Assembly: GCA_946481585.1 (NCBI GenBank)
Contig: CAMLOF010000040.1
Coordinates: 1-15,987, forward strand
Length of the DNA stretch: 15,987 nucleotides
Source of the DNA: an uncultured Macromonas sp.
GTDB taxonomy: Bacteria > Pseudomonadota > Gammaproteobacteria > Burkholderiales > Burkholderiaceae
Direction: 5' to 3'
Shown in pieces: positions 2,604-15,987 of the stretch (position 1 is its first letter; the number at the start of each line of letters is the position of its first letter). The notes beneath the pieces were generated by a model. That model saw only the letters and a program-made list of their open reading frames with translations. It did not search any database and had not been told where the DNA came from. The position numbers and the translations under genes were made by a program.

Positions 2604-2652
2604 TGCCAGCCATTGCACCATCCTTGGGCGCAATTCTTGCTTGAGTTGGTGC

Positions 2653-4404
2653 ATGGCATTCGACATCGACATTGGCTTTGTCTCGCAGGCGGGCCGCAAA
2701 GACATCAACGAAGACTTCTGCGCCGCCATGCTGCCCGCGCCCGGGCAGGAGGGCTGGGGTTCCATCGTTGCCATTGCGGACGGCGTGAGCACTGGCGGCA
2801 TGGGTAAAGAGGCGGCGCAGACCAGCGTCACCAGCCTGGTGCGCGACTACTTCGGCACGCCCGAAACCTGGGACACCACCGTGGCACTGGACCGCGTGAT
2901 TGCCGCGCAGAACGCCTGGTTGGCGGGTGTCAACCGTCGCCGCCAACCCGCCATGGGGTTGACGACGCTGACCGCGCTGGTGCTGCGTGGCCAGTCCTAC
3001 ACCCTGGCGCACGTGGGCGACACGCGCTGCTACCTGCTGCGCGACGGGCAGCTCCAGCGCCTCACACACGACCACGCGGTCAACCACCCAGACCTGCGCC
3101 ACCAGTTGCTGCGCGCTGTGGGGGCAGAGGATCACCTCGTGGTGGACTACCTCCAGGGTGACCTCCACGTGGGCGACCTGTTCGTGCTGGTGTCTGACGG
3201 CGTGCACGGCAAGCTGGCCGAACGCCGCATGCGCGAACTGCTGGCCACGCCCGGCGCGCAGCAGACCAGCCAGGCGTTGGTGGACGCGGCGCTGGCTGCG
3301 GGCAGCGACGACAACGTCACCGCCATGGTGGTGCGCGTGCTGGGCTTGCTCGATGCATCACTGCACGATGTGGCGCGCGTGGCCGAGGCGTTGCCCGTGC
3401 CCGGTCACCTCAAGGTCGGCGACGTACTCGACGGCTTCACCGTGACCGCGCGCGTGGCAGACAACGGTATCAACGTTTTGTACCAAGTGCGCGAACCGGG
3501 CACCCACATGCTCTACGCGCTCAAGGCGCTGCATCCGTCGCGGGCGCACGATCCCGACGAGCGCGCCATGCTCGCCCACGAGGCCTGGCTGGCGTCACGC
3601 ATGCGCACGTCGAGCGTGGCCAATCACCTCGTGCACATCCACGACACGCTGCCCCATGGCCGGGCGCGCTCGGCTTTCTACCTGCTGTACGACTGGCACA
3701 GCGGCGAGACCCTGCACCAGATGCTGGAGCGCCAGAAGCGGTTCACGCCCACGCAGGCGGTGGGCCTGGCGGTGCAGGCCCTGCGCGTGCTGGGCCGCTT
3801 GCACCGGCAGGGCGTGGTACACCGCGACGTGAAGCCCGAAAACCTGCACCTGGGCGAAGACGGTGTGTTGCGCCTGCTGGACATGGGCGTGGCCCTGACG
3901 GGGCGCGAACCTGAAAGCATGCGGCGCCTGCACGCGGGTACACCCAGTTACGTGAACCCGGAGCAGTGGGGCTTCCAGATCCGCGCACTGGCCACGGCAC
4001 AGGAAGGTGAACACGAACTGCCCAACACCCAGAGTGACTTGTTTGCCCTGGGCGTCACGCTGTACAAGCTGCTGACCGGCAAGCTGCCCTACGGCGAGGT
4101 GCTGCCCTACCAGGTGGGGCGCTACTACCGCGACCCCACGCCGCCCAGCCGCCACAACCCCGAGGTGCCGATCTGGCTGGACCACGTGGTCCTGAAGGCC
4201 GTGGCGCGGGACAAGACGCAGCGCTTCGAGACGGCAGAGGAGTTCACTCTGGCCCTGGAGCGGGGGGCTTCCCGCCCGTTGACCGCGCCCCATCCGGCCA
4301 CCCTGGTGGAGCGCGACCCGCTCGTCATCTGGAAGATGCTTTTCGCGGTGAGCGTCCTCTTCAACCTGCTGCTGATTTACTGGCTGCTCTTCCTGCCGAA
4401 GTGA
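2653..4404 (+). CDS. Bifunctional PP2C-type phosphatase / Ser-Thr protein kinase, tail-anchored
   Basis: The 583-residue protein joins a phosphatase and a kinase that would act on Ser/Thr residues of unknown targets. Residues 1-232 are a PP2C domain with its metal-binding acids: RKDINEDF (15-22), ADG (42-44), VGDTR (121-125), SDG (181-183) and GSDDN (217-221). Residues about 260-540 are a Hanks-type kinase: Lys291, Glu310, catalytic loop HRDVKPEN (390-397), DMG (410-412) in place of DFG, activation-segment end NPE (435-437), and SDLFALGVTLYKLLTG. The glycine loop is poorly conserved. Residues about 560-581 form one hydrophobic helix at the extreme C-terminus, so the enzyme should be a tail-anchored inner-membrane protein facing the cytoplasm. 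ATG 2653 was preferred over an upstream TTG at 2641. As I recall, a similar kinase sits between nirB and the nitrate transporter in Pseudomonas aeruginosa, so the link to nitrate assimilation is probably conserved. The last 44 bp overlap narK on the other strand. Confidence 0.9.
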   Translation: MAFDIDIGFVSQAGRKDINEDFCAAMLPAPGQEGWGSIVAIADGVSTGGMGKEAAQTSVTSLVRDYFGTPETWDTTVALDRVIAAQNAWLAGVNRRRQPAMGLTTLTALVLRGQSYTLAHVGDTRCYLLRDGQLQRLTHDHAVNHPDLRHQLLRAVGAEDHLVVDYLQGDLHVGDLFVLVSDGVHGKLAERRMRELLATPGAQQTSQALVDAALAAGSDDNVTAMVVRVLGLLDASLHDVARVAEALPVPGHLKVGDVLDGFTVTARVADNGINVLYQVREPGTHMLYALKALHPSRAHDPDERAMLAHEAWLASRMRTSSVANHLVHIHDTLPHGRARSAFYLLYDWHSGETLHQMLERQKRFTPTQAVGLAVQALRVLGRLHRQGVVHRDVKPENLHLGEDGVLRLLDMGVALTGREPESMRRLHAGTPSYVNPEQWGFQIRALATAQEGEHELPNTQSDLFALGVTLYKLLTGKLPYGEVLPYQVGRYYRDPTPPSRHNPEVPIWLDHVVLKAVARDKTQRFETAEEFTLALERGASRPLTAPHPATLVERDPLVIWKMLFAVSVLFNLLLIYWLLFLPK

Positions 4405-5667: not shown

Positions 5668-5760
5668 AGACCGGCGCTGGCCCGGGGGCAAGTGATGCAT
5701 CCATGCAGCGGCAGCCGCGGTGGAATGCAGAGGGGGGATGTCAGGCCGTCGTTAGCCTGA
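5661..5760 (-). promoter_or_regulatory. Candidate ANTAR-responsive RNA leader of narK
   Basis: The predicted RNA starts at about 5760 with hairpin 1 (5760-5741), a 7-bp stem around the hexaloop AACGAC, the same loop as in the nirB leader. A linker of about 50 nt can form a middle hairpin, with gcat/atgc ends and an inner gcgg-ctg-ccgc. The last hairpin (5691-5661) is a stem of about 12 bp with one bulged C and two G-U pairs, around the hexaloop AGCGCC. Both hexaloops have A at position 1 and G at position 4, the ANTAR-target signature. The 3' arm of the last hairpin overlaps a possible weak terminator. Confidence 0.62.
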
Positions 5761-5769
5761 GAACTTCAC

Positions 5770-5785
5770 AGCAAAAACCGTGCCT
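5770..5785 (-). promoter_or_regulatory. Sigma-54 promoter of narK
   Basis: Minus-strand AGGCACGGTTTTTGCT matches the consensus TGGCACG-N4-TTGCW at all but the first base and has GG-N10-GC spacing. The start of transcription should fall at 5759-5760, which is the first base of the AACGAC hairpin. The promoter abuts, and overlaps by 3 nt, the 15-bp stem of the preceding hairpin. Its run of five T may also serve as that hairpin's U-tract. Confidence 0.68.
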
Positions 5786-5904: not shown

Positions 5905-6732
5905 TCAGGCGGCCTTTTCCACGTGGGCCTGGCGGGTGTACAGGAAGTCGATCACGGCCTTGCGGTATTGCAGGTAGGCCGGATCTTCGGCCAGTTCCAC
6001 ACGGTTGCGCGGGCGCGGCAGCGCCACCGGCAGCACCTCGCCAATGGTGGCGGCAGGGCCGTTGGTCATCATCACGATCTTGTCGGCCAGCAGAACGGCT
6101 TCGTCCACGTCGTGGGTCACCATCACCACCGTGCTCTGTGTGCGCGCCACAATCTCCAGCAACTCGTCCTGCAGCTTGGCGCGGGTCAGGGCGTCCAGCG
6201 CGCCAAAGGGCTCGTCCATCAACAGCACCTTGGGCTCCATGGCCAGGGCGCGGGCAATGCCCACGCGCTGCTTCATGCCGCCAGAGATTTCGCCAGGGCG
6301 TTTCTGCGCGGCATGGGTCAGGCCAACCAGTTCCAGTGCGGCGTGGGTGCGCGCGGTCAGTTGCGCCTTGTTCTCGGCCGCGGCACCGGTGCTTTTCGAC
6401 GCTGCGCCAAACACGCGCTCCACACCCAGGTAGACGTTCTCGAAACACGTCAGCCACGGCAGCAGCGAGTGGTTCTGGAACACCACGGCACGTTCCGGCC
6501 CTGGGCCCGCGATCTCGCGCCCGGCGCACAGCAGCACGCCGTCGGTGGGCGTCGTGAGCCCGGCAATCAGGTTGAGCAGCGTGGACTTGCCGCAGCCCGA
6601 GTGGCCGATCAGCGCCACGAATTCGCCCTTGGCAATGTTCAGGTGGATGTCGCGCAACGCGGGGAACAGGCCCTTCTTGGTCTTGAACGTCTGCGCCACG
6701 CCTTGGATGTCGATGTACTTTGCGTCGCTCAT
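5905..6732 (-). CDS. nrtD: Nitrate ABC transporter ATP-binding protein
   Basis: This 275-residue cytoplasmic ATPase powers nitrate import through the NrtB permease. Walker A is GHSGCGKST (43-51), the Q-loop Gln is at 86, the ABC signature is ISGGMKQR (149-156), Walker B is VLLMDEP (169-175) and the switch His is in VTHD (207). The sequence belongs to the nitrate/sulfonate/taurine subgroup. It is a single ATPase without the NrtA-like C-terminal fusion of cyanobacterial NrtC, so NrtD is the better name (nasD is also used). Its ATG overlaps the stop of the permease gene in an ATGA arrangement, implying translational coupling. Confidence 0.9.
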   Translation of the reverse strand: MSDAKYIDIQGVAQTFKTKKGLFPALRDIHLNIAKGEFVALIGHSGCGKSTLLNLIAGLTTPTDGVLLCAGREIAGPGPERAVVFQNHSLLPWLTCFENVYLGVERVFGAASKSTGAAAENKAQLTARTHAALELVGLTHAAQKRPGEISGGMKQRVGIARALAMEPKVLLMDEPFGALDALTRAKLQDELLEIVARTQSTVVMVTHDVDEAVLLADKIVMMTNGPAATIGEVLPVALPRPRNRVELAEDPAYLQYRKAVIDFLYTRQAHVEKAA

Positions 6733-7667
6733 GATTTCACCTCTTCGAACGTGAAGGCCGTGGCCAGCTTGATCAGGGCCATTTCCAGCAGCAGGCCCAC
6801 GGTGCCGATGACGAAGATCGCCACGATGATGTTGGTGACGTTGAGGTTGTTCCACTCGTCCCACACCCAGAAGCCAATGCCCACGCCGCCCGTCAGCATC
6901 TCGGCGGCCACGATCACCAGCCACGCGGTGCCCACGGCCAGGCGCACACCCGTCAGCATGTAGGGCAGCACGGCGGGGAACAGGATCTTGGTCACGATCT
7001 TCCACTCGCTCAGGTTCAGCACACGGGCCACGTTCATGTAGTCCTGCGGCACGCGCTGCACACCCACGGCGGTGTTGATCACCATCGGCCAGATCGAGCA
7101 GATGAAGATGGTCCAGATGGCCGCCGGGTTGGCACCCTTGAACACCAGCAGGCCAATGGGCAGCCAGGCCAGCGGCGACACTGGGCGCAGCAGGCTGATG
7201 AGCGGGTTGAACATGCGGCTGAGGAAGCCGAAGCGCCCGATCATGAAGCCCAGCGGAATGCCCACCACCGCCGCCAAGCCAAAGCCCATGGCCACGCGCT
7301 GCAGCGACATCAGCACGTTCCAGCCCACGCCCTGGTCGTTGGGGCCGTTGCGGTAAAACGGGTCCGAGAAGATCTGCACCGCCTGCTTGCCCGTTTCCAG
7401 CGGCGACGGGATGCTGCTGCCCGTGGACACCGACACCAGGTACCACACCCCGATCAACAGCAACAGTCCTAGCACGGGCGGGACTACCCGCTGTGCCAGC
7501 TCCGTCAGATCGATCAATGGGGCTTTGCGGGCCACCGCCTGAGGCGGCGTTGGCGCGGGTTTGTTGGAGGCTTTGGCTGCCAGAGCCTGGGCCATGGTGG
7601 CTGGCTTCGCCGTGGTCGCCACTGGGGCGGCCGCCTCCAGCGGTGAATGAAAGACTGCGCTTACCAT
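6729..7667 (-). CDS. nrtB: Nitrate ABC transporter permease
   Basis: This 312-residue inner-membrane permease has an Ala/Pro-rich N-terminal extension (about 1-50), then about six hydrophobic helices. The first is VVPPVLGLLLLIGVWYLV. The cytoplasmic loop DYMNVARVLNLSEWKIVTKILFP, the EAA-type region that docks the ATPase, is present, followed by LPYMLTGVRLAVGTAWLVIVAAEML as in NrtB/SsuC/TauC proteins. The start at 7667 is preferred over a GTG at 7676 because AGGAG lies 8 nt before the ATG. That Shine-Dalgarno overlaps the stop codon region of nrtA. The 3' end overlaps nrtD by 4 bp. Confidence 0.9.
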   Translation of the reverse strand: MVSAVFHSPLEAAAPVATTAKPATMAQALAAKASNKPAPTPPQAVARKAPLIDLTELAQRVVPPVLGLLLLIGVWYLVSVSTGSSIPSPLETGKQAVQIFSDPFYRNGPNDQGVGWNVLMSLQRVAMGFGLAAVVGIPLGFMIGRFGFLSRMFNPLISLLRPVSPLAWLPIGLLVFKGANPAAIWTIFICSIWPMVINTAVGVQRVPQDYMNVARVLNLSEWKIVTKILFPAVLPYMLTGVRLAVGTAWLVIVAAEMLTGGVGIGFWVWDEWNNLNVTNIIVAIFVIGTVGLLLEMALIKLATAFTFEEVKS

Positions 7668-7679
7668 GTTGTCCACTCC

Positions 7680-8972
7680 TTAAACCTTGACCTTGAAGCC
7701 GTCGGCGTATTTCGCCGGGTCCTTGCCGTCCCACACCACGCCGTCCACCAGCTTGTGGGAGCGCATCTCGCTCTTGGGCAGCGGTGTCTTGCTGGCCGTG
7801 GCGGCCTGCTTGTAGATGTCGATGCGGTTGATGGCCTTGGCCACTCCCAGGTAGTCGGGGTGGTCCTTCAGCAAGCCCCAGCGCTTGTGCTGCGTCAGGA
7901 ACCACATGCCGTCGCTCAGGTAGGGGAAGTTCACCGCTCCATCGTTGTAGAACTTCATGTGGTTCGGGTCGTCCCAGGTCTTGCCCAGGCCGTTCTGGTA
8001 GCGGCCCAGAATGCGCTGGTTGATCGCGTCCACGCTGGTGTTCACGTACGCGCGGTCGGCAATCGTCTCGGCCATCTTCAGCTTGTTCTGCAGGCCCGCG
8101 TCAATCCACTTGCCCGCCTCCAGAATGGCTGCCGTCACGGCGCGTGCCGTGTTGGGGTACTTCTGCACGAATTCAGCAGTGGTGCCCAGCACCTTTTCGG
8201 GGTGGTCCTGCCAGATGGCCTGTGTCGTCGTGGCGGTGATGCCAATGCCGTCCATGATGGCGCGGTGGTTCCAGGGTTCGCCCACGCAGAAGCCGTCCAT
8301 GTTGCCCACGCGCATGTTGGCCACCATCTGCGGCGGCGGCACGGTGATGACCTTGGCGTCCTTCATCGGGTTGATGCCGTGGGCTGCCAGCCAGTAGTAA
8401 ATCCACATGGCGTGGGTGCCGGTGGGGAAGGTCTGGGCGAAGGTGTATTCACGCTTGTCCGTCTGCATCAGCTTGGCCAAGCTGGCACCGTCCACGGCCC
8501 CCTTGTCTGCCAGCTTCTTGCTCAGCGTGATGGCCTGGCCGTTGTGGTTCAGGTTCATCAGCACGGCCATGTCTTTCTTGGGGCCGGCCGTGCCCAGGTG
8601 CACACCGTAGATCAGGCCGTACAGCACGTGGGCAAAGTCCAGCTCGCCGTTGACCAGCTTGTCGCGCACGCCGGGCCAGCTTGCTTCCTTGGTGGGAACG
8701 ATCTTGACGCCGTATTTCTGGTCGATGCCCAACACCGACGCCATCACCACGCTGGCGCAGTCCGTCAGCGGGATGAAACCGATCTTCACTTCCTTCTTTT
8801 CGGGAGCATCCGAGCCCGCAGCCCAAACGCCATGGTGCCCCAGGGTGGAGAACAAGGCCGCGCCAGCCAGCGCGCCCCCTTTCTTGATGAGCTCGCGTCG
8901 GCTGGGTTGCTCGACGGCAGTTTCGGTACGTGCCTCGACGGGGCTGGCGGTGGAAGGGATGGCTTGGCTCAT
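7680..8972 (-). CDS. nrtA: Nitrate ABC transporter substrate-binding protein with Tat signal
   Basis: This 430-residue protein of the NrtA/CmpA family captures nitrate in the periplasm and delivers it to NrtB. A twin-arginine signal is visible: SRRELIKKG (24-32), then a hydrophobic stretch ending in WAAG near residue 53, so it should be exported folded. The mature part starts EKKEVKIGFIPLTDCASVVMA, typical of NrtA. FCVGEPWN and the aromatic-rich regions also fit this family. The ATG at 8972 has AGGAG 5 nt upstream. In-frame upstream codons to 9005 lie within the leader terminator's U-tract and are not used. Expression should depend on read-through of the strong terminator just upstream. Confidence 0.92.
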   Translation of the reverse strand: MSQAIPSTASPVEARTETAVEQPSRRELIKKGGALAGAALFSTLGHHGVWAAGSDAPEKKEVKIGFIPLTDCASVVMASVLGIDQKYGVKIVPTKEASWPGVRDKLVNGELDFAHVLYGLIYGVHLGTAGPKKDMAVLMNLNHNGQAITLSKKLADKGAVDGASLAKLMQTDKREYTFAQTFPTGTHAMWIYYWLAAHGINPMKDAKVITVPPPQMVANMRVGNMDGFCVGEPWNHRAIMDGIGITATTTQAIWQDHPEKVLGTTAEFVQKYPNTARAVTAAILEAGKWIDAGLQNKLKMAETIADRAYVNTSVDAINQRILGRYQNGLGKTWDDPNHMKFYNDGAVNFPYLSDGMWFLTQHKRWGLLKDHPDYLGVAKAINRIDIYKQAATASKTPLPKSEMRSHKLVDGVVWDGKDPAKYADGFKVKV

Positions 8973-8997: not shown

Positions 8998-9057
8998 AAA
9001 AACAAAAACGGCGGCCATCACGGCGCCTGCGTTTGCAGGCGGGTGATGGACGCCGTT
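8998..9057 (-). terminator. Strong intrinsic terminator (attenuator) in the nrtA leader
   Basis: A long three-part stem: aacggcg (9057-9051) pairs with 9013-9007, ccatcac (9049-9043) pairs with 9021-9015, and gcctgc (9040-9035) pairs with 9030-9025 around an aaac loop. It is followed directly by TTTTTGTTTTT (9008-8998). It lies before the nrtA start codon, so it can only act as an attenuator. Its 5' arm is shared with the second ANTAR hairpin. Confidence 0.85.
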
Positions 9058-9110
9058 GTCCGGGGGTGTCGTATCAGGACACAAGGTTGGCGCCGCCGTT
9101 GGCCCAAACC
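9048..9110 (-). promoter_or_regulatory. ANTAR-responsive RNA leader of nrtABD
   Basis: Hairpin 1 (9110-9085) carries the hexaloop AACGGC on a 3-bp GC helix, continued after a bulged G by ccaacc pairing with the upstream ggtttgg (one bulged T). A middle hairpin, gtgtc/gacac with a 7-nt loop, spans 9082-9066. Hairpin 2 (9061-9048) is a 4-bp stem, ggac/gtcc, around the same hexaloop AACGGC. Both hexaloops have A1 and G4, the signature recognised by NasR/NasT-type ANTAR domains. The loop and 3' arm of hairpin 2 lie within the 5' arm of the terminator. Protein binding that stabilises hairpin 2 would therefore prevent termination. Confidence 0.75.
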
Positions 9111-9124
9111 GTCGATGGAGTTAA

Positions 9125-9140
9125 AGCACCTTCCGTGCCA
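9125..9140 (-). promoter_or_regulatory. Sigma-54 promoter of nrtABD
   Basis: Minus-strand TGGCACGGAAGGTGCT matches TGGCACG-N4-TTGCW except for one T to G change and keeps GG-N10-GC spacing. The predicted start is near 9114, four bases before hairpin 1 of the leader. A 7-bp hairpin (9176-9155) lies upstream of it on the same strand. Confidence 0.7.
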
Positions 9141-9213: not shown

Positions 9214-9256
9214 GTCCAGCATGGTGCATGGCCTGGCAATTGGCGGCGATGGTGCA
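9214..9256 (-). promoter_or_regulatory. NtrC-like sites upstream of nrtA
   Basis: The half-site TGCACCAT occurs twice on the minus strand, at 9256-9249 and 9228-9221. The second continues as TGCACCATGCTGGAC, resembling TGCACCA-N3-TGG of the NtrC palindrome with a degenerate right half. The first overlaps the palindrome GGTGCACC (9258-9251). They lie about 100-140 bp upstream of the predicted start of transcription, within enhancer range. Confidence 0.4.
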
Positions 9257-9282
9257 CCGCAGCAGTGCTGTTGTGCGCACCT

Positions 9283-10554
9283 TCAGCGCAAACGGGCGGG
9301 CAACACCTCGGCCATGGAGAGCACTGCCTCTGCCACCTCCACCAGCCGACGCCCCTGGTTCATGGCCATCTGCCGCATCGTGCGGTGCGCGTCTTCCTCG
9401 CTCAACTGGCGGTGCGCCATCAGCAGGCCCTTGGCACGTTCAATCACCTTGCGCTCGTTCAGGCTGGCGCGCACGGTGTCCAGTTCCTCTTCCATCTTCT
9501 GCAGCCGGTGCGCCTGGGCGTGCAGCAGGTCCAGCACTCCGCGGTCCAGTTGCGAACCCAACGGGCGAACCGGCGCCTGGGCTTCCAGCGTCTCCGGCTC
9601 CTCAAAGAATGTGGCCTGCGTTTCTGGTGCAACGGCAGACTCGTTCAGCGTGGCTTGCACCCTTTCCAGGTTATCCAGTTCCAGTCTGGCTTGCGCAAGT
9701 TTCCTGTCGCACAGCGTCTGCAGCGCCAGCGACAGGTGCATCTCCACAGTGCGCATGGCGTCGATTCGAGCGCTGCAGCCATCGAACCACGATGTACTCC
9801 AAGCCTTGTTGAGCGGTCCTCCGTCAACGCTAGTGCACAGCACGCGTCGCATCCGCTCCAGCTCGGCCAACTGCGGGGCGGACAAGCTGCTCTCCCACAA
9901 GGCGCGAGTGTCCGCGTCAGCGAAATCGGCAAACACCTCCAGGCACTGCTCCTGCGACTCGATCAGCCGCATCAGCCGCTGTTGCTGCCGAGCGTCGGCG
10001 CGCCCTGCGGCGAACATGGCAGCGCCCGTGGCGCGTTCCTGCCCCACGAACTCCTTGCCCTGCATGAAGTTGAACAGGCTGACCAGCAGGCGGGACACGT
10101 CGGGGTCGGTGGCCGTGTCGGCGGCCTCAAACACCACCGCCAGCAAGCCAGCAACCAGTTGCACGTAAGCGGCGGTGGCGCGCGGGGCGTCCCAGCGTTG
10201 ACGGTCCACCTGCCTGCGCAAGGCGGGCAGGGCGTCCAGCCCCTGCAGTACGTAGGCAATGCGGCTGAACAGCCGCGCCCCGTTGGTCATGCCTTGGGGT
10301 TCAAGGTTGAGCGTGTCAAAACATGCGCGCAGGGCGGTTTCGGTTGCCGTGCTGGCCAACAGCTGTTCCTGGCGCAAGGCGCTGGCGTCGGCGCCGCCCG
10401 AGCCCAGAAAGAGGTTCGTCAACCCGCGCTCACGCTGCAGGTCGTGAATCATGCGGGCGGTGGTGTCCACCAGCACGCTGGTCTGCGCCAGTTGGCGCAG
10501 ATCGGCGATCTCGCAGCGCTTGGCCGCGACCAGGAAGCACAAACCCGTTTTCAT
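9283..10554 (-). CDS. nasR: NasR-type nitrate-sensing transcription antiterminator (NIT domain + ANTAR)
   Basis: The 423-residue protein has two parts. Residues about 25-285 form a helical NIT domain, with the conserved arginine-containing stretch HDLQRERGLTNLFLGSGG (37-54) and a second block QQRLMRLIESQEQCLEVFADF (191-211). In Klebsiella NasR this fold binds nitrate or nitrite. Residues about 355-415 are an ANTAR domain (LNERKVIERAKGLLMAHRQ, then RQMAMNQGRRLVEVAEAVL) that binds hexaloop RNA hairpins. It lies directly upstream of, and on the same strand as, the nrtABD leader, as NasR lies beside its target operon in Klebsiella. The start at 10554 is chosen because AAAGGTGG precedes the ATG by 11 nt. 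In-frame ATG 10584 and two TTG codons further upstream lack a good ribosome site. It is divergent from tsaD across 94 bp in which I see no clear promoter. Confidence 0.88.
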   Translation of the reverse strand: MKTGLCFLVAAKRCEIADLRQLAQTSVLVDTTARMIHDLQRERGLTNLFLGSGGADASALRQEQLLASTATETALRACFDTLNLEPQGMTNGARLFSRIAYVLQGLDALPALRRQVDRQRWDAPRATAAYVQLVAGLLAVVFEAADTATDPDVSRLLVSLFNFMQGKEFVGQERATGAAMFAAGRADARQQQRLMRLIESQEQCLEVFADFADADTRALWESSLSAPQLAELERMRRVLCTSVDGGPLNKAWSTSWFDGCSARIDAMRTVEMHLSLALQTLCDRKLAQARLELDNLERVQATLNESAVAPETQATFFEEPETLEAQAPVRPLGSQLDRGVLDLLHAQAHRLQKMEEELDTVRASLNERKVIERAKGLLMAHRQLSEEDAHRTMRQMAMNQGRRLVEVAEAVLSMAEVLPARLR

Positions 10555-10648
10555 CTCTTGAACATCCACCTTTCGGCAAAGCATCAGCAACAAACGTGCC
10601 TTGCCCCTGCCGCCGGGCTGGCAACGGCGTGGCGCTTACACTCCGCGC

Positions 10649-14932: not shown

Positions 14933-15987
14933 ATGAGCATGTTCAACAAAGTCACCAAAACCTTCCAATGGGGCAAGCACACTGTCCGCATGGAAACCGG
15001 CGAAATCGCCCGTCAGTCCAGCGGCGCCGTGCTGCTCGACATGGAAGGCACCGTCGTGCTGGCCACCGTGGTGGCCAAGAGCGAAGCCAAGGCCGGCCAG
15101 GATTTCTTCCCGCTGACCGTTGACTACATCGAGAAGTCCTACGCCGCTGGCAAGATCCCCGGCAGCTTCTTCAAGCGTGAAGGCCGCCCCAGCGAGCTGG
15201 AAACCCTGACCAGCCGCCTGATCGACCGCCCCATCCGCCCGCTGTTCCCTGAAGGTTTCTTCAACGAAGTGCAGGTGGTCATCCACACGCTGTCGCTGAA
15301 CCCGGAAGTGGACGCCGACATCGCAGCCATGATCGCCACCAGCGCCGCGCTGTCCGTGTCTGGCATCCCGTTCAACGGCCCCATCGGTGCAGCTCGCGTG
15401 GGCTACATCAACGGTGAATACGTCCTCAACCCCGGTCAGTCCGAGCGTGCCAACAGCCAGATGGATCTGGTCGTTGCAGGCACCCAGGCCGCCGTGCTGA
15501 TGGTCGAGTCCGAAGCCGAGCAACTGTCCGAAGAAGTGATGCTGGGCGCCGTGGTGTTCGGTCACGAGCAGGGCAACATCGCCATCAATGCCATCAACGA
15601 ACTGGTGCGTGATGCTGGCAAGCCCGAGTGGAACTGGCAGCCCCCGGCGCAAGACGACGCCCTGATCGCCAAGGTCGAGGCCCTGGGTCGCGACAAACTC
15701 GTCGCCGCATACCAGATCCGCAACAAGCAGGCCCGTACCCAGGCCTGCCGCGAGGCTTATGCCGCCGTCATGGAAGGCCTGAAGGCCGAAGGCGTGGAGT
15801 TCGACGGCGTGAAGGTTGAAGGCCTGCTGTTCAACATCGAAGCCTCCATCGTCCGTGGCCAGATCCTGGCCGGCGAGCCCCGCATCGACGGTCGCGACAC
15901 CCGCACCGTGCGCCCCATCGAAATCCGCAACGGCGTGCTGCCGCGCACCCACGGTTCCGCCCTGTTCACGCGTGGCGAAACCCAGGC
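14933..15987 (+). CDS. pnp: Polyribonucleotide nucleotidyltransferase (PNPase), N-terminal 351 residues (cut by window edge)
   Basis: PNPase degrades RNA from the 3' end using phosphate, as a trimer and as part of the RNA degradosome. The visible part covers the first RNase PH-like domain, starting [28 protein letters not shown]. It includes [29 protein letters not shown] and [14 protein letters not shown], both strongly conserved, then the all-alpha linker and the start of the second RNase PH domain ([32 protein letters not shown]). The full protein is usually about 700 residues. AAGGAG lies 6 nt before the ATG at 14933. Confidence 0.98.

Follow-up and report, generated by a model that had tools for sequence, protein, structure and literature searches.

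A probable sigma-54-driven ANTAR attenuator upstream of nrtA, and a candidate second nitrate-sensing ANTAR regulator, in an uncultured Macromonas sp.

Introduction

The closest described counterpart of the locus analysed here is the nasF leader of Klebsiella oxytoca, for which Ntr control is reported to be combined with nitrate-dependent antitermination by NasR (PMC5424462, PMC7496416). Published accounts describe a NIT-ANTAR regulator and two hexaloop hairpins with A at loop position 1, G at position 4 and a C:G closing pair, the second hairpin overlapping the terminator (PMC7496416, PMC3369931, PMC5424462). Full affinity of Klebsiella NasR is stated to require both hairpins, SELEX with this protein is described as selecting A1, G4 and the C:G closing pair, and nitrate is given as lifting read-through from 5 to 52% (PMC7496416). 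Alanine at W362 or N373 of the protein is reported to cause loss of RNA binding.

In the NasS-NasT systems of Paracoccus, Azotobacter and Pseudomonas, antitermination at the leader of nasA, which serves nitrate assimilation, is likewise ascribed to or demonstrated for an ANTAR protein (PMC3795266, PMC5424462). NasT itself lacks a sensor domain and is restrained by NasS, unlike the regulator described below, which carries its own NIT sensor. The eut leaders of Enterococcus, read by EutV, are described as following the general two-hairpin scheme of ANTAR antitermination (PMC3369931), but they serve ethanolamine utilization and receive a two-component input.

The DNA studied here, called the window, is a stretch of 15,987 nucleotides from an uncultured Macromonas sp. 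(GCA_946481585.1, contig CAMLOF010000040.1).

Anatomy of the nrtA leader and its operon

Upstream of nrtA, a sigma-54 promoter is followed by a pair of hairpins with AACGGC hexaloops, then by a terminator and a T-rich tail (Table 1). A first-pass annotation had proposed the same anatomy, which is also conserved in relatives, and had left unstated that it lies on the minus strand; the NIT-ANTAR gene is found on one side of the leader and nrtA on the other. Transcription is predicted, by sequence-level placement, to start at 9114, assuming C9126 to be position -12 (the start was set one base earlier in the leader-survey, shuffled-set and NtrC-site scans). Both hairpins carry A at position 1, G at position 4 and a C:G closing pair as in NasR-type leaders, and a NIT-ANTAR regulator adjoins the operon. 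Judged from its sequence alone, the promoter is a candidate sigma-54/Ntr promoter, as expected of such a leader. An inverted repeat, AGCACTGCTGCGGTGCA (9253-9269, minus strand), lies ~155 nt upstream of the predicted start and agrees at 11 of 12 positions with the NtrC consensus. Of 79 upstream regions, 28 have a best NtrC-like site that scores at least 10, whereas mononucleotide shuffling, a weak control, would predict ~1.3.

Table 1. Features of the window discussed in the text.
Feature	Position	Strand	Basis or remark
sigma-54 promoter box TGGCACGGAAGGTGCT (GG-N10-GC), nrtA leader	9140-9125	minus	one departure: GTGC for TTGC
hairpin 1	9110-9085	minus	loop AACGGC 9100-9095; begins 4 nt past predicted start; folding, covariation
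hairpin 2, GGAC-AACGGC-GTCC, antiterminator half	9061-9048	minus	loop 9057-9052; folding, conservation
intrinsic terminator stem, includes hairpin 2 loop and 3' arm	9057-9007	minus	-37.2 kcal/mol
U-rich tail TTTTTGTTTTT	9008-8998	minus	sequence, folding
nrtA, NMT1-like binding protein of nitrate ABC transporter	7680-8972	minus	PF13379, 339 bits
nrtB, permease	6729-7676	minus	TIGR01183, above cut-off
nrtC/D, ATPase	5905-6729	minus	TIGR01184, above cut-off
nasR-like NIT-ANTAR regulator, presumed leader reader	9283-10557	minus	Pfam NIT 186 bits, ANTAR 70 bits
sigma-54-like box AGGCACGTTTGTTGCT before nasR	10586-10601	minus	box scan
second ANTAR regulator: receiver-like domain, ANTAR, two PilJ (NarX/McpN-type) domains	1311-2603	plus	domain search
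sigma-54 box TGGCACAAGTCTTGCG before nirB	1178-1193	minus	box scan
class B hairpin 1, nirB leader, loop GACGAA (G at position 1)	1150-1165	minus	scan, alignment
class B hairpin 2, nirB leader, loop AACGAC	1099-1121	minus	scan, alignment
sigma-54-like box AGGCACGGTTTTTGCT before NarK-like MFS transporter	5770-5785	minus	box scan
class B hairpin at predicted 5' end of transporter mRNA, loop AACGAC, U.G closing pair	5741-5760	minus	scan, alignment

The name nrtA follows from the position of the gene before nrtB and nrtC. The neighbouring regulator, earlier annotated as NasR-like, deserves this description: its NIT and ANTAR domains are recognized by Pfam and its nearest solved structure is that of Klebsiella NasR (4akk, E 4.6e-44). 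A sigma-54-like box comparable to the one preceding its gene was found before nasR in 69 of 80 relatives, against 3.8% in the control. All 81 sequences (NasR of the window and 80 relatives) retain the arginines of QxERG and RR in the NIT domain, as well as those of the ANTAR domain that correspond to Klebsiella R340 and R366. The protein differs from Klebsiella NasR in having H at the place of W362 and G at that of N373. Among the 81 sequences the first place is occupied by H in 74 and otherwise by Y, and the second by N in 65 and G in 11; Klebsiella residue numbers were transferred manually from the alignment, W362 giving a chain offset of 27. The leader also departs from that of Klebsiella nasF, compared by its published description, in that the operon starts with nrtABC and the two loops start 43 nt apart.

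Mutual exclusion of hairpin 2 and the terminator

The terminator begins exactly at base A1 of the hairpin 2 loop, so that the two structures are mutually exclusive. The first-pass annotation had stated that the 5' arm of the terminator contains the loop and 3' arm of hairpin 2 and that only one of them can form, and had named RNA folding as a check. Folding gave -37.2 kcal/mol for the terminator and -23.9 kcal/mol when hairpin 2 was held closed, a cost of 13 kcal/mol; both this result and the compensatory changes described below agree with the claim. In folds of the growing transcript, 3' ends at 9045, 9035 and 9025 give hairpin 2, which is absent from 9015 onward. The 129-nt leader RNA is more stable than its shuffled versions (z -3.7), 1 of 200 being equally good.

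The motif GG-N10-GC alone is at chance level in the window (403 matches, 381 expected), as is the sigma-54 box with at most two mismatches (12 matches, 15.9 expected), and for this reason neither was given weight by itself. The ordered set was defined as a sigma-54 box, then two C:G-closed ANNGNN hairpins separated by 20-50 nt, then a T-run at proper distance. The window contains it once, and none of 300 dinucleotide-shuffled windows does. A plain terminator scan of the window called nothing at the nrtA leader, probably because of internal mismatches in the stem and because its last pairs use the first Us of the tail.

Conservation in relatives

A contig search with the NasR protein found 343 loci, of which the first 80, mostly from Hydrogenophaga, Variovorax, Polaromonas and kin, were used. 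As they were picked by likeness of NasR, their leaders are related by descent. The leader set (n=79) comprises the window and the 78 relatives with nrtA downstream, L077 and L080 having no nrtA match. A sigma-54 box with at most two mismatches is present in all 79 leaders (0, 1 and 2 mismatches in 24, 53 and 2, respectively), and so is hairpin 2, with loop AACGGC in 45 and AAAGGC in 34. Hairpin 1 was found in 78 by the strict scan, the remaining leader (L052) matching the model all the same; in L063 hairpin 1 was assigned by hand. The T-run was detected in 74 leaders by the pattern used (absent in L001, L023, L035, L040 and L067) and in five of these it lies ~18 nt past the stem (L004, L012, L014, L016 and L028). 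In all 74, 7-10 of the 10 nt of the hairpin 2 loop and 3' arm find pairing partners on the 3' side.

Alignment of 45 of the 75 distinct hairpin cores, with near-duplicates dropped by eye, showed 96.4% of cells paired in hairpins 1 and 2, and double-sided changes in 79 cells compared to 30.1 in shuffles (0 of 500 as high). Nearly all of these changes fall in hairpin 1 because the stem of hairpin 2 hardly varies. For the terminator, 46 of 68 distinct sequences were aligned, near-duplicates again being dropped by eye, and RNAalifold pairs the hairpin 2 loop with the terminator arm. Position 3 of this loop faces the terminator 3' arm as C-G in 28 sequences and as A-U in 17, and is unpaired in one; the two loop types thus match two terminator ends, GCCGTTTT and CGCCTTTT. 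This compensatory change indicates that selection retains the loop within the terminator stem, as an ANTAR switch requires.

Variovorax-type nrtA leaders (L025, L036, L055 and others) have an extra inverted repeat, AGACC-N6-GGTCT, between the promoter and hairpin 1. Its loops are variable and it was not counted among the class B hairpins described below.

Interpretation of the nrtA leader

The best reading of the nrtA leader is an Ntr-driven, NasR-dependent antitermination leader of the Klebsiella nasF type. We hold it to be very probable that the leader is an ANTAR attenuator, and are less confident that NasR is its sole reader. A system with the same parts and logic has been published for Klebsiella, which places the leader in an already known kind; the Klebsiella NasR precedent had been invoked by the first-pass annotation, and the logic described in the published accounts (PMC5424462, PMC7496416) fits it.

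In such a leader the nrtABC nitrate-uptake operon would stand under a two-input gate. Nitrogen shortage would fire the sigma-54 promoter, presumably via NtrC, and in the nascent RNA hairpin 1 would form first, followed by hairpin 2. Unless held, hairpin 2 would be unzipped, its loop and 3' arm being drawn into the long terminator that ends at the U-tail. A NasR dimer with bound nitrate or nitrite would grip A1 and G4 of both hexaloops, hairpin 2 would stay closed and RNA polymerase would read through into nrtA. The leader would then represent a clean and highly conserved beta-proteobacterial case of an AND-gate for Ntr and nitrate, with a compensatory record of mutual exclusion.

The second ANTAR protein of the window (REC-ANTAR-PilJ-PilJ) might be the reader of the attenuator instead of NasR or together with it: its ANTAR domain is EutV-like, with F and N at the places of W362 and N373, and its sensor domains are of the nitrate type. 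We regard this as unlikely: in the genome comparison, which took in 50 of the 80 loci, the protein is unmatched in 34 relatives' genomes, while nasR and the nrtA-type leader, hereafter class A, are found in all 50; besides, nasR lies directly upstream of the nrtA leader. The leader could also consist of a plain sigma-54 promoter and a terminator that acts constitutively against stray read-through from nasR, the hexaloops having no role. The terminator does sit downstream of nasR and the single motifs are common by chance, but there is strong conservation of both loops alongside covariation in the hairpin 1 stem, the overlap of the terminator with hairpin 2 is maintained by compensatory change, and a terminator placed downstream of the nrtA promoter would silence the operon if there were no switch, all of which makes this reading very improbable.

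Some ANTAR-RNA pairs of actinobacteria act on translation. This precedent (PMC8164766) speaks for control of nrtA at translation or mRNA decay rather than at termination, the least probable of these readings: hairpin 2 ends ~75 nt before the nrtA ATG (8972) and overlaps the U-tailed terminator, not the ribosome-binding site.

Likeness to the Rfam narK RNA

The nrtA leader scores 21.1 bits (E 2.9) against the Rfam narK RNA, RF03032, below its cut-off of 43.2. The RF03032 consensus has nevertheless a similar layout, with a GG-N10-GC box followed by the hexaloop CCAACGGCGG and by a second hexaloop (CGACAAAGACGUCG); the Rfam model pairs the first hairpin only and leaves the second hexaloop unpaired. 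An order-wide draw of 200 genomes, which has two genomes (G013 and G047) in common with the 50-genome relatives' set, gave a NasR match (E 1e-40) in 10 genomes and matches to the class A model at 64 places in 56 genomes (E 0.01); the hairpin models match their own training rows by construction. The class A match lies beside NasR in four of the ten NasR-matching genomes, those at 55-60% identity, and 49 class A genomes have no NasR match, from which it follows that the motif is not NasR-only.

In the same draw the narK RNA gave 37 matches at E 0.01, three of them reaching the Rfam cut-off; 25 of the 37, including two of these three, overlap class A matches. Of 12 narK loci inspected, 10 are followed by nrtA and nine have an ANTAR gene no more than 1.5 kb away. 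Its consensus, its overlap with class A and its nrtA and ANTAR neighbours suggest that the narK RNA is best read as the same arrangement, and thus point to its nature, apparently a sigma-54 promoter with a tandem ANTAR target behind it. This likeness had escaped the first-pass annotation, as had the second ANTAR protein and the boxes and hexaloops before nirB and the NarK-like transporter.

The second ANTAR protein

While the nrtA leader itself is well explained and mostly known, the window holds a less expected second regulator of different build, which deserves attention together with its hairpin class. The gene of the second ANTAR protein is divergent to nirB in the window. Nitrate-binding PilJ domains are described by the McpN N-box pattern [IVL]-[ND]-x-A-G-x-Q-R-M-L-[ST]-Q (PMC6381276). 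Compared by eye, the second PilJ domain (LNMAGRQRMLSQ) fits this pattern, and the first (LNRAGQLRMLSQ) departs from it at one place (Q to L). By Foldseek alone, NasR was not among the best 50 matches listed. Relatives of the protein go under the database names 'type IV pili methyl-accepting chemotaxis transducer' and 'AmiR/NasT family response regulator'. It is probably a one-component nitrate regulator that has the parts of NasR in reverse order. A gene coding a PP2C phosphatase-Ser/Thr kinase fusion (2641-4404, plus strand) directly follows and is adjacent in several relatives too.

Class B hairpins

A hairpin with loop RACGAM (class B) is found at about +1 to +3 after the sigma-54 boxes of nirB (TIGR02374, 391 bits on a cut-off gene fragment) and of the NarK-like transporter (TIGR00886, E 2e-72 yet below its cut-off). 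In most class B nirB leaders a second loop of RACGAM type follows ~45 nt on, AACGAC in the window. Alignment of 25 of 29 leaders (near-duplicates dropped by eye) showed 100% of cells paired and 29 double changes, with 0 of 500 shuffles as high, in rows that were partly selected for the hairpin and are therefore biased; for two measures out of five, the number of doubly changed pairs and that of further pair types, the values did not exceed shuffles. G4 is invariant (25/25), position 1 is A or G, and the closing pair is U.G in 19 and C-G in 6. Class B hairpins are less likely to be DNA sites of a dimeric regulator, because it is the loop that is preserved and not the arms. A conserved second hexaloop in the transporter leader was also considered and discarded: the 12-bp AGCGCC hairpin of the window is not repeated in the relatives compared.

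All 16 of the 50 relatives' genomes that have the second protein also have class B (E below 1e-5), as do 7 of the 34 without it (Fisher 5e-8, a value that ignores kinship, many of the rows having trained the class B model). In all 16 the class B leader lies 65-234 nt from the gene of the second protein and divergent to it, as in the window. Exactly two genomes of the 200-genome draw have class B, those with a full-length second protein (G013, which is also in the relatives' set, and G098); four further genomes match its REC-ANTAR part only. Class B is not exclusive to the second protein, given the seven genomes mentioned (G001, G006, G024, G036, G037, G039 and G050). In G001, G024, G037 and G039 the only ANTAR match is then NasR, which tells against a strictly one-to-one code; the records of G037 and G039 carry no MAG label.

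In five genomes without the second protein (G025, G034, G042, G045 and G046; only E 0.03 for G042) nirB has a class A leader with a U-tailed terminator. The nirB leaders L033, L044, L047, L072, L073 and L063 are of the class A terminator type in place of class B. Upstream of nirB, class A and class B thus seem to substitute for one another.

No conserved U-tailed terminator was seen in 14 class B nirB leaders aligned and inspected by eye, although individual ones (L032, L052) have T-runs; some class B transporter leaders have four Ts straight after the hairpin. Given this lack of a conserved terminator, the second protein would act otherwise than by classical antitermination. We tentatively propose, as a possibility that is still rather doubtful, that it is a separate one-component nitrate regulator whose PilJ pair, within residues 170-430, would form a NIT-like double sensor bundle and which reads the RACGAM hairpins at the 5' ends of the nirB and NarK-like transporter mRNAs. 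If so, one cell would run two nitrate-sensing ANTAR proteins with two RNA codes within 10 kb. The data point to a sizeable family of ANTAR proteins with built-in PilJ nitrate domains, whose target code is directly testable.

In the Variovorax transporter leaders (L036 at 15923-15977, and others) a conserved GGTG lies downstream of the class B hairpin, whose 3' arm CACC could also pair with it in a possible alternative fold.
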